In this document: one piece after another, positions 29,196 to 31,919 of the stretch
Numbering within the stretch: position 1 is the first letter of the stretch
Layout: each line of letters opens with the position of its first letter
Assembly: GCF_014695715.1 (NCBI RefSeq)
Contig: NZ_JACJOT010000008.1
Location: forward strand, 930,001-994,000
Source of the DNA: Microcoleus sp. FACHB-68
Lineage (GTDB): Bacteria > Cyanobacteriota > Cyanobacteriia > Cyanobacteriales > Oscillatoriaceae
DNA: 64,000 nucleotides
Direction of reading: 5' to 3'
Translations under genes and position numbers: made by a program
The notes under the pieces: model-generated
Database searches by the model: none
What the model was told of the DNA's origin: nothing
Seen by the model: only the letters and a program-made list of their open reading frames with translations

Positions 29196-29417
29196 CTACT
29201 GACTTAAATTCTCTTTTTCTCGCTTTGGTATGGCTTTTACAGGTGTTTTGAGCAAAACCCAATCGAGATACAGCATGAGAATTTGCATTTTCAATAAGTT
29301 GCTTGCACGCTTGATATTGCTATCACTTAGCACCGACTCCCAGAACTTCTTCAGCCGGATTCCAAGAACAATGTCGGTAGACTTCTCTAGAGCCAGAAGA
29401 ACAAGATTTTCAACCAT
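29196..29417 (-). CDS. Possible small helical protein upstream of the NACHT gene
   Basis: A 73-residue open frame with a plausible protein composition (MVENLVLLALEKSTDIVLGI, KFWESVLSDSNIKRASNLL) and AAGG about ten bases before its ATG. It is divergent from the NACHT gene, so both would be transcribed away from the repeat-bearing 29418-29582 interval. A 70-codon frame on the + strand (29230-29442) covers the same DNA but has more Arg/Ser and no good ribosome binding site. I do not recognise either product. Confidence 0.35.
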   Translation of the reverse strand: MVENLVLLALEKSTDIVLGIRLKKFWESVLSDSNIKRASNLLKMQILMLYLDWVLLKTPVKAIPKREKENLSQ

Positions 29418-29477
29418 TTCAATGACCTTAGTTATTTACTAAGGACACTGTCGCAATTTTATTTAAGAGTGATTTAC

Positions 29478-29526
29478 CTGACTTGCTCTGACTTAGCCTG
29501 ACTTGTTCTGACATTCCCTGACTAGC
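29478..29526 (+). promoter_or_regulatory. Five CTGAC direct repeats with exact 10-bp spacing
   Basis: CTGAC begins at 29478, 29488, 29498, 29508 and 29518; three copies extend to CTGACTT. The spacing equals about one helical turn, so all copies face the same side of the DNA. The array ends 57 bases before the NACHT start. The NACHT protein starts with a helix-turn-helix, so an operator for autoregulation is an attractive inference. Confidence 0.6.
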
Positions 29527-29582
29527 TAAATTTTTTGGGAAAACTTTGGCTAGACTGGTTTAAGAGATTTAGGAAATAGTAA

Positions 29583-31919
29583 ATGTCGCTACCAGAAGAC
29601 TTTCTGACTCAACTAGAACAGTATGGGGAGTTATCGCAGGGGGAAAGGGAGGTCTTCGTGGCGATATTTAGTCATGGCAAGAGTCGAGTGGAAGTTACAC
29701 AGGCTTTACATATCTCAGATAGTAATTTGAGTACCCGGCTATCAGGCATTTACAAAAAATTCAAGATTAGTGGCAATGGCCCAGTTAAGGAAAACCGATT
29801 ACGGGAATATCTGAGCAAACGATACTCACTGTTGAAAGCGTCTGCTTCCTCAACTCCTCATGATTCAGACTCTAACATTAATGCGTTAGTCCAAGAAGTG
29901 CGAGAGAAGGTGAAACCCGGCATTCAAGAACGTTGCAGTACAATGCGCGTGCTGGATATGACTCAGCCTATAGGGTTGAATGATATCTACACCAATGTCA
30001 ATATTCTGGAGAAAATTACAAGAAATCGGCGTATAGAAGTTTCTGAACTATTGAAAGTGTGCAACTCAGATGATTTTGAGCGCTTTGGACTTAGTGAAAT
30101 CGCTGAAGAACGAGTGCCGGGACTGGAAGCCGTCAAGAAATATACCAAGCTGATGATCTTGGGGAAGCCGGGAGCGGGAAAAACCACGTTTATGAAATAT
30201 GTAGCGATGCAGTGTATTGCGGGAAATTTTCAAGCTGATCGCGTGCCAATTTTTGTCACTCTCAAAGACTTTGCAGATTCTACAAATAAATCCGGATTAC
30301 TGGAATACATCTGTCAGCAACTTTCTAACGGCGCAGAAACACAAAATTCTGCGTCTATGCAAAAGGTGATCGCCCACGGCAGAGCATTGATTTTACTCGA
30401 TGGCTTGGATGAAGTTAGAGAAGACGAGAGCAACTGTGTTTTAAAGGAAATTCGTAATTTATCTGATAAGAATAGTGATAATCACTTTGTAATGACTTGT
30501 CGCATTGCAGCGCAGGAATATATCTTCAATAAATTTACAGATGTAGAAGTCGCTGATTTTGATAATGAGCAAATGGCCACGTTTGCGAATAAATGGTTTA
30601 AGGGTAAAGTCGTAAAAGCGGAAACTTTTCTTAAACGTATTCAAGATAATCAACGAATCAGAGAGCTGGCCACAAATCCGCTGTTGCTGACGCTCTTATG
30701 TTTGGTCTTTGAAGAATCCGGAGATTTTCCGGCAAATCGTTCTGAACTGTACAAAGAAGGACTGGATGCCCTGCTGAAAAAATGGGATGCCAAGCGCGGA
30801 ATTGAGCGCTATCAGATTTACAAAAAGCTATCCGTTCAACGCAAGGAAGATTTACTTAGCAAAATAGCCCTAACTACATTTGAGAAGGGAGACTATTTCT
30901 TCAAGCAAAAAGCAGCAGAACTCTACATTAAAGATTACATCCGTAATTTACCTGATGCTAATACTGAACTGGAAGTATTGCAATTGGATAGTGAGAAAGT
31001 CTTGCAATCAATAGAAGCTCAACACGGGTTATTAGTAGAAAGGGCTAAGGGAATTTACTCTTTTTCCCATTTGACATTTCATGAGTATTTCACGGCTAGA
31101 GAGATTATTGTCGGCAATCAATCATCAGAGGAAGCATTGCAAAATCTGGTCAACCACATCACTGAAAGGCGTTGGCGAGAAGTCTTTTTACTCGCTGTTG
31201 GGATGTCGCCAAGTGCAGATCGGCTGTTGTTGCTCATGAAAAAGCAGGTCGATTTGCTTCTAGAAGATGATCAGAAGTTGCAGGAGTTCTTGATATGGCT
31301 CAGGGAGAAATCTGATTCACTTGACGTTCCATATAAATCAGCAGCAGTTCGGGCTTTTTACTTCAAGCTCGACCGCGACCTTGACCGCGACCTTGCCCGC
31401 GACCTCGACCGCGGCCTCGTCCGCGACCTCGACCGCGCCCTCGCCCGCGCCCTCGACCTCGACCTCGTCCGCGTCTTCGCCCTCGACCTCGTCCTCGACC
31501 ACGCCCTCGACCTCGACCGCGCCCGCGACCTCGCCCTCGACCACGTCCTCGCCCCCCTTTTTGCCTACGCCCGCGACCGCGCCCGCGACCGCGACCTTAA
31601 GGAAGCACTGCAAGAACTTAAGGAACAATTACCTGTTCTAAATGATGAAGAAAAAATATTTAAACAATGGTGGAAAGATAATGGTTGGGCTTGGATTGAG
31701 CAATTAAGAGTCGTAACCATTAAATATTGCAATATTGGGCACGATTGGCAGTTCAGTAAACAGCAAAAGGAACTGCTTCAGCGGTATTACGATGCGAACT
31801 TGTTGCTAATCAATTGCTTGAATAGCGATTGTTATGTGTCCCGTGAGGTGCGGCAGGAAATAGAGGATACCTTGTTGTTACCCATTGCAGAGATTGAAAA
31901 ACACCGGCACCCCGCATAA
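29583..31919 (+). CDS. HTH-NACHT NTPase with Asp/Leu/Arg repeat tail (STAND-type, NLR-like)
   Basis: A 778-residue protein. The N-terminal ~80 residues form a helix-turn-helix like those of LuxR/sigma-4 or cyanobacterial STAND proteins (LSQGEREVFVAIFSHG, VEVTQALHISDSNLSTRLSGIYKKF). The NACHT NTPase follows: P-loop GKPGAGKTT with Lys200, Walker B LILLDGLDEV at about 267-276, and a helical NACHT-associated region to about 590. Residues ~595-675 are a low-complexity run of DLDRDL/ARDLD-like units from CTCGACCGCGAC-type DNA repeats. A ~100-residue unique C-terminus ends the protein. Bacterial NACHT proteins include anti-phage sensors; that role here is inferred. AGGAAA precedes the ATG. There is no obvious separate effector domain. 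Confidence 0.85.
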   Translation: MSLPEDFLTQLEQYGELSQGEREVFVAIFSHGKSRVEVTQALHISDSNLSTRLSGIYKKFKISGNGPVKENRLREYLSKRYSLLKASASSTPHDSDSNINALVQEVREKVKPGIQERCSTMRVLDMTQPIGLNDIYTNVNILEKITRNRRIEVSELLKVCNSDDFERFGLSEIAEERVPGLEAVKKYTKLMILGKPGAGKTTFMKYVAMQCIAGNFQADRVPIFVTLKDFADSTNKSGLLEYICQQLSNGAETQNSASMQKVIAHGRALILLDGLDEVREDESNCVLKEIRNLSDKNSDNHFVMTCRIAAQEYIFNKFTDVEVADFDNEQMATFANKWFKGKVVKAETFLKRIQDNQRIRELATNPLLLTLLCLVFEESGDFPANRSELYKEGLDALLKKWDAKRGIERYQIYKKLSVQRKEDLLSKIALTTFEKGDYFFKQKAAELYIKDYIRNLPDANTELEVLQLDSEKVLQSIEAQHGLLVERAKGIYSFSHLTFHEYFTAREIIVGNQSSEEALQNLVNHITERRWREVFLLAVGMSPSADRLLLLMKKQVDLLLEDDQKLQEFLIWLREKSDSLDVPYKSAAVRAFYFKLDRDLDRDLARDLDRGLVRDLDRALARALDLDLVRVFALDLVLDHALDLDRARDLALDHVLAPLFAYARDRARDRDLKEALQELKEQLPVLNDEEKIFKQWWKDNGWAWIEQLRVVTIKYCNIGHDWQFSKQQKELLQRYYDANLLLINCLNSDCYVSREVRQEIEDTLLLPIAEIEKHRHPA
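31366..31605 (+). repeat. GC-rich 6/12-bp tandem repeats inside the NACHT gene
   Basis: About 240 bases of degenerate CTCGAC/CGCGAC/GCCCTC units, all in phase with the codon frame. The other frames across this stretch are also open, giving artefact ORFs rich in Ser/Thr/Pro (+ strand) or Val/Glu/Gly (- strand). Base composition is far more GC-rich than the surrounding gene. Confidence 0.85.

Follow-up and report, generated by a model that had tools for sequence, protein, structure and literature searches.

A phased direct-repeat array between an HTH-NACHT-NCH2 gene and a divergent small gene in Microcoleus sp. FACHB-68, a possible operator of the NLR-like protein itself

A short run of evenly spaced direct repeats precedes a gene of Microcoleus sp. 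FACHB-68 whose product joins a helix-turn-helix (HTH) domain to a NACHT ATPase. An initial annotation of this DNA had proposed that the NLR-like protein binds these repeats and controls its own promoter. Do the repeats serve the gene that they precede, do they serve another regulator, or are they a tract without function? Here, we analysed the window, which is a stretch of 64,000 nt (contig NZ_JACJOT010000008.1, positions 930,001-994,000, assembly GCF_014695715.1), and compared it with other cyanobacterial genomes. In the literature searched, which left subscription papers and preprints outside, we found no description of such arrays in the promoters of NACHT genes. The array, the gene and its domains are the following.

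29478..29524, + strand: operator-like array CTGACTT, CTGACTT, CTGACTT, CTGACAT, CTGACTA at exact 10-bp steps, read from the sequence and recurring in homologues
29583..31919, + strand: HTH-NACHT-NCH2 gene, an open reading frame of 778 aa (Pfam NACHT 1.4e-17, NCH2 3.1e-40)
29583..29846, + strand: N-terminal HTH domain, residues 1-88, with the recognition helix at about residues 46-59
30150..30602, + strand: NACHT domain, residues 190-340 (Pfam)
31596..31883, + strand: NCH2 domain, residues 672-767 (Pfam)

Five copies of CTGAC start at 29478, 29488, 29498, 29508 and 29518, in steps of exactly 10 bp, as had been read initially. The distance then given to the start codon was 57 bases; 60 bases lie between 29522, where the last CTGAC ends, and the ATG at 29583, and 56 bases when the array is ended at 29526, as the initial annotation had done. 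The array is better described as a heptamer, CTGACTT, with a 3-bp spacer. The heptamer is constant and the spacers, GCT, AGC, GTT and TCC, are unlike one another, so that the array is not a recent tandem duplication. At 29469, GTGATTT could be one more copy, the sixth, in degenerate form.

The pattern CTGAC-N5-CTGAC-N5-CTGAC, with up to 2 mismatches, occurs 3 times in the window, always within the array, and the mean of 100 dinucleotide shuffles of the window is 0.06. In the 6.5 Mb of the own genome, the three-copy pattern with up to 1 mismatch has 4 matches and the reversed control has 0. Three of these matches are exact and all lie in the array, which is the sole place of the genome with three exact CTGAC copies at a 10-bp step; the remaining match, located elsewhere, has 1 mismatch. 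An origin by chance or as a microsatellite was rejected by the shuffles, by this uniqueness and by the conservation described below. It is also very improbable that the repeats are a functionless tract of simple tandem repeats, such as cyanobacteria often carry. Heptamer repeats, for example TAACTGA, are abundant in some cyanobacteria, according to PMC4679880, and several places elsewhere with three TGACTT units have identical spacers. Against such a tract stand the constant heptamer with spacers that differ between copies, the uniqueness of the exact three-copy form in the own genome, and the occurrence of the array at the same promoter position across many genera.

The gene product begins with an HTH and continues with a NACHT domain, in agreement with the initial annotation, the class of the HTH being only probable. 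The NACHT domain (PF05729) scores 64.4 bits, above the curated cut-off of 26.7, and its C-terminal helical domain is NCH2 (PF22727), with 136.7 bits against a cut-off of 27. The N-terminal HTH is probably of the LuxR/NarL type. Pfam GerE gives it 17.9 bits, under the gathering score of 23.5; a related domain of the same genome (L013) passes at 31.5 bits, and the model of the HTH domain looks like LuxR/NarL-type HTH domains. Since the HTH is N-terminal, the protein does not have the C-terminal LuxR HTH by which MalT-type (LAL) proteins are defined. PADLOC and NCBIfam returned weak matches only, in the NACHT part (PDC-S60, EruA). Between NACHT and NCH2, tandem 6/12-bp repeats (window positions 31368-31593) encode a stretch rich in Arg, Asp, Leu and Ala (LDRDLARD...), and similar stretches that differ in length are found in the homologues L036, L049 and L062.

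A NACHT homologue is found at 1e-40 in 221 of 388 cyanobacterial genomes, while a profile of the N-terminal HTH matches 115 of the 388 at 1e-9. From the matches listed (about 150), 70 HTH loci were picked roughly by score, with all those of at least 72 bits included, and the 320 bp upstream of the HTH start were read. A motif-free test compared self-similarity at periods 7 to 13 with 200 dinucleotide shuffles, p ≤0.01 being significant, and a motif scan compared CTNACNT units, at allowed steps of 9-11, with a 99% null. In the 18 closest loci (HTH of at least 89 bits, 13 genera), the motif-free test found period 10 in 14 and periods 7-9 and 11-13 in none. A CTNACNT array above the null lies within 320 bp in 17 of these 18. 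In the eighteenth, L107, five CTGACT-like units lie beside the small gene, at 640-690 bp upstream (by eye). What separates them from the NACHT gene is presumably a BrnT/BrnA-like toxin-antitoxin pair, a label given by eye, at about 118-620 bp before the HTH start.

With more distant HTH domains the array becomes infrequent. Between 72 and 89 bits, the motif-free test was positive in 0 of 34 loci and the scan in 6 of 34, one of them doubtful; many of the 34 belong to one genus (g60) and have another recognition helix. Below 72 bits, 18 loci gave period 10 in 3, period 11 in 3 and period 8 in 1. New loci came from 214 genomes belonging to this order: 23 of the genomes have the HTH at 1e-20, and 14 loci reach at least 85 bits, 13 of them with upstream sequence and three of these 13 sharing one genus. 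The scan was positive in 10 of the 13 and motif-free period 10 in 9. Of the three loci that failed the scan, L222 has a 10-bp array with a different motif, and L215 and L224 have none at 10. L233 and L234, which pass the scan, consist of short open frames, with lengths of 112 and 96 aa. Among 8 further new loci, with 72-81 bits, 3 pass. The expectation that homologues carry the array is thus borne out for the close HTH loci, old and new, and not for most of those with a more distant HTH.

Other features were seen at individual loci. Three HTH genes with more distant heads (L121, L151, L160) have arrays at or near 10 bp with other motifs, and the L121 protein appears NB-ARC/TPR-like by eye. In L112, what we take, by eye, to be a MITE-like inverted repeat lies between a CTTACAT array and the NACHT gene.

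Many NACHT-homologue matches start only near residues 79-103, and therefore the N-terminal module is exchanged among homologues. An XRE/Cro-like profile, made from 12 sequences, matches 48 of 49 control NACHT loci, all except L057. Of two controls compared with Pfam HTH_3, L006 passes (32.1 bits) and L053 fails (15.8 bits). L006 is the one paralogue of the own genome with an XRE-type head; from residue 90 onward it is 54% identical. Upstream of the true start, as set by the XRE profile, these loci show period 11 in 14 of 48, period 9 in 7 of 48, and periods 7, 8, 10, 12 and 13 in 0 of 48. An earlier run, from the first possible start codon, gave 0, 12 and 4 of 49 for periods 10, 11 and 9. The scan found a CTNACNT array in 0 of the 48. 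A link of the array to the NACHT part was accordingly rejected, as neither a period-10 nor a CTNACNT array precedes any of these XRE-head homologues.

In a wider XRE-type sample (n=90, 100 shuffles), periods 7 to 13 were significant in 4, 3, 12, 6, 8, 8 and 3 loci, respectively. The excess is modest, because the background is already 3-4 loci, and a rule of "11 bp for XRE" was rejected by this sample. The CTNACNT scan was positive in 5 of the 90. XRE-type genes of genus g10 (L067-L070, L295, L300) have 10-bp TGACTT arrays, and the units of XRE-type arrays often read TGA(C/G)TTG. Arrays exclusive to the HTH type of the window were rejected, given that XRE-type genes own phased arrays. Phased arrays are found with DNA-binding heads of either fold; a step of strictly 10 bp is found with the HTH type of the window. 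In the XRE-NACHT relatives L238-L242, a 9-bp TGTTTGATT-like array stands before the gene.

Three TGACTT units in phase, with up to 1 mismatch, occur at 54 places in 39 of the 388 genomes, and at 35 in the reversed control. Thirty of these places have flanking sequence, and 9 of them, including that of the window, lie directly before an HTH open reading frame. The remaining 21, together with L024, are varied. L067-L070 lie before genes with an XRE-type N-terminal domain. In L078 and L079, from two genera, a gene that we take, by eye, to be GNAT-like follows 69 bp after three TGACTT-like units at 10 bp. Three further places adjoin what is presumably a tRNA-like gene (by eye), and the rest are mixed. 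Among the places without flanks, three match the HTH loci L100, L101 and L105. Exact four-copy CTGAC arrays are present in 7 of the 388 genomes, and the other six look like tandem repeats (L024 was the one examined). Occurrence of the same array before unrelated genes, which the initial annotation had set against its own proposal, is thus absent in the own genome; elsewhere, a few similar arrays precede other genes.

These comparisons bear on which protein binds. The gene's own HTH probably binds the array directly and controls from it, whatever the sign. The main evidence against this reading is that XRE-type arrays often share a TGA(C/G)TT core, some of them at period 10 (6 of 90); a core common to two unrelated folds might point to a third protein as the binder of both types of array. 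Such a protein would be a host regulator in its own right, of the OmpR/PhoB/RpaB kind, that binds TGACTT-like arrays and controls immune-receptor-like genes, the HTH having another role. The TGACTT-like core found with both HTH types is the strongest point for this alternative, which we consider quite unlikely. OmpR-type sites are direct repeats spaced 10-11 bp apart, about one turn. The CTTACAT arrays of L112, L113 and L226 resemble the HLR1 box and were counted for the host regulator. Response regulators are also able to bind direct repeats, according to PMC5859096. On the other side, pairs of TGACTT-N4-TGACTT (up to 1 mismatch) are not enriched in the own genome (35 places, compared with 45 for the reversed control), and no regulon of such sites was found in this genome. 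Furthermore, the period changes with the N-terminal module in genes that are otherwise alike, and the bases of the motif vary with the gene's own recognition helix, as far as a weak test tells.

This covariation was followed in 36 array loci, above a 99.9% null and with an HTH of at least 72 bits. Of 10 loci with Phe49, 9 have A at position 6 of the motif, against 6 of 26 loci with other residues (Fisher 4e-4), in a comparison of residue 49 that was picked post hoc from the table. Helices with AIRNRK or AIRSRK go with CTTACAT in 3 of 3 loci, two of which are close relatives. A partial Mantel test of helix against motif gave r 0.14, p 0.038; the rest of the domain follows the motif nearly equally (r 0.12, p 0.06), ancestry being hardly corrected. 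Covariation of the motif bases with the own recognition helix is thus suggestive only. Self-control of the promoter, as proposed initially, is supported in part, by comparison, in that the array tracks the HTH head and is not spread in the own genome; binding by the domain, oligomerisation on the array and activation are presumed.

On its other side, the array faces a second gene. That the array is shared with this small gene, which is conserved and divergent from the NACHT gene, is a point absent from the initial annotation.

29196..29417, - strand: small hydrophobic-protein gene, 73 aa, kind A, divergent (open reading frame, profiles)
29420..29450, - strand: leader hairpin of the small gene, with the ribosome site AAGG in the stem (MFE -14.6 kcal/mol, z -4.93)
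29446..29456, - strand: TTGCGACAGTG block in the leader of the small gene (TTGCGACA in 12 of 27 leaders)

At E 0.01, the divergent small gene is the only match in its own genome. Profiles of two kinds, A and B, were run within 1 kb upstream of 92 HTH loci and 49 control loci, where they found 14 and 21 open reading frames, 35 in total, of which 14 are themselves profile members. All 35 lie on the divergent strand, 23 at HTH loci and 12 at controls. A small gene of kind A or B is present in 16 of the 18 closest HTH loci, and L110 and L217 have other short divergent open reading frames. The same layout of HTH-NACHT gene, array and divergent small gene is found on the Allocoleopsis franciscana plasmid pMIC7113.05 (L236). 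There, the small gene, of kind B and annotated as WP_015186280.1, lies opposite the HTH-NACHT gene, and the array between the two reads CTTATGT, CTGATGT, CTTACAT. Genes for a type I restriction subunit and for abortive infection come after the HTH-NACHT gene of this plasmid. A blastn search of the window promoter against plasmids found nothing related.

The leader hairpin, when refolded, again gave -14.6 kcal/mol, with a z of -4.85. Among the leaders of small genes, 15 of 27 have a z below -2; such hairpins are common, and a universal leader hairpin was rejected. The TTGCGACA element occurs in 12 of the 27 leaders, with variants in others, between the array and the small gene.

The position of the array relative to the NACHT promoter gives an indication of the sign of control. 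Two candidate elements lie between the array and the start codon.

29551..29556, + strand: TAGACT, within TTTGGCTAGACTGG, a candidate -10 element; the last repeat starts 33 bp before it (sequence)
29571..29574, + strand: AGGA, a candidate ribosome site for the NACHT gene (predicted from the sequence)

A -10-like (T/G)GNTANA(C/A)T follows the array in 12 of 35 loci. Its distance from the start of the last repeat is 33-36 bp in 9 loci and 21-24 bp, about one turn less, in 3, that of L233 being measured from a doubtful last unit. If transcription begins about 7 bases past TAGACT, the array would lie at about -85 to -39, just above -35, and such a position suits an activator. Activation is the likelier sign at the NACHT promoter, because the array in many loci ends just upstream of the expected -35 region.

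Within the reading in which the own HTH binds, a smaller share belongs to the possibility, a serious one though less likely than not, that the N-terminal domain is a plain autorepressor on the array, antitoxin-like, and linked neither to sensing nor to NACHT oligomerisation. The array is near, and by eye maybe overlaps, the -35 region of the divergent promoter. A defence gene, AbiEi, reportedly represses itself through several repeats, and was counted for this alternative. Against it, among the 12 loci in which a -10-like element was recognised, 9 have the array upstream of the likely NACHT -35, which suits activation. Moreover, the HTH is fused to a NACHT ATPase, and the comparable ATPase part of AfsR regulates its DNA-binding part (PMC10936776).

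The preferred reading, in which the own HTH binds, can be described as follows. The array, which is conserved, linked to the N-terminal module and flanked by the divergent gene, would be a bidirectional operator between the NACHT gene and the small gene and would control both promoters. Each CTGACTT heptamer, one per helical turn, would be bound by the N-terminal HTH of one subunit, and several subunits would line up head-to-tail along one face of the DNA. How many heads are presented together would be governed by the NACHT ATPase, and the small protein may be an effector or partner. In this scheme, cooperativity, control by the NACHT part and the sign are each presumed. A more far-reaching proposal, which we regard as unlikely, is that of a receptor of the NLR kind with a transcriptional output: sensing would lead to a NACHT oligomer, the oligomer to a row of HTHs on the array, and this row would fire the small gene and the own gene. 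The small protein would then be the executioner, otherwise restrained by the leader hairpin, and head exchange would go with array exchange.

Phased direct repeats are present in the promoter of this STAND-type gene by sequence, period test and CTNACNT scan, and known systems offer partial parallels, the nearest designs being STAND-type regulators. MalT is a STAND protein with a LuxR-type HTH, that of the window protein being only probable, and its DNA binding is coupled to oligomerisation. It differs in that its HTH is C-terminal, and in its response to maltotriose and its metabolic regulon. AfsR (SARP-NOD-TPR) shares with the window protein a STAND ATPase joined to an N-terminal DNA-binding domain; ATP binding activates it and also has a role in MalT, and the operators of SARP proteins consist of direct repeats at a distance of 11 or 22 bp (PMC10936776). 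Unlike the window protein, AfsR is a Streptomyces antibiotic regulator and not an NLR-like gene, and its target afsS has two repeats, the upstream one overlapping the -35.

PimR of Streptomyces natalensis, a SARP-LAL regulator, has an ATP/GTP-binding part and an N-terminal DNA-binding domain (PMC5930380). At pimM, its operator is made up of three heptamers in direct repeat, separated by 4 nt and located upstream of the -35, and cooperative binding was proposed (PMC5930380). It resembles the window protein in its N-terminal DNA-binding domain, its nucleotide-binding part and its operator of heptamer direct repeats. It differs in its SARP (OmpR-like) domain, in a period of 11 against 10 here and in regulating another gene, not itself; in the accessible text of PMC5930380, no NACHT or NCH2 and no divergent small gene are described. 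BldC binds cooperatively and head-to-tail on direct repeats, with protected tracts one helical turn apart, as is proposed here, but it is a small MerR-like protein without ATPase or sensor (PMC5859096). bNACHT25 has a NACHT ATPase and a C-terminal helical domain, NCH1 there and NCH2 here; its N-terminal effector is a nuclease (PMC12169576), whereas the window protein has a DNA-binding domain in that place.

By analogy with AfsR, PimR and MalT, the NACHT protein would most likely bind the array with several HTH heads and control both genes. The system belongs to a known kind, in which a protein of the STAND type has an operator of phased direct repeats, and it is found here with an NLR-like gene, a small divergent gene as probable partner and a head that can be exchanged. 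Those NLR-like proteins of bacteria that have been characterised, for instance bNACHT25 with its nuclease, bear effector heads, whereas here the head resembles a transcription factor. This head has a visible conserved candidate target on DNA, and the target differs where the head differs; action of an NLR-like protein on DNA can therefore be tested directly at this locus. A promoter reporter would be an easy readout of whatever the NACHT protein senses. The small divergent gene, itself conserved, may be a partner, and the homologues supply a natural collection of head/operator pairs.
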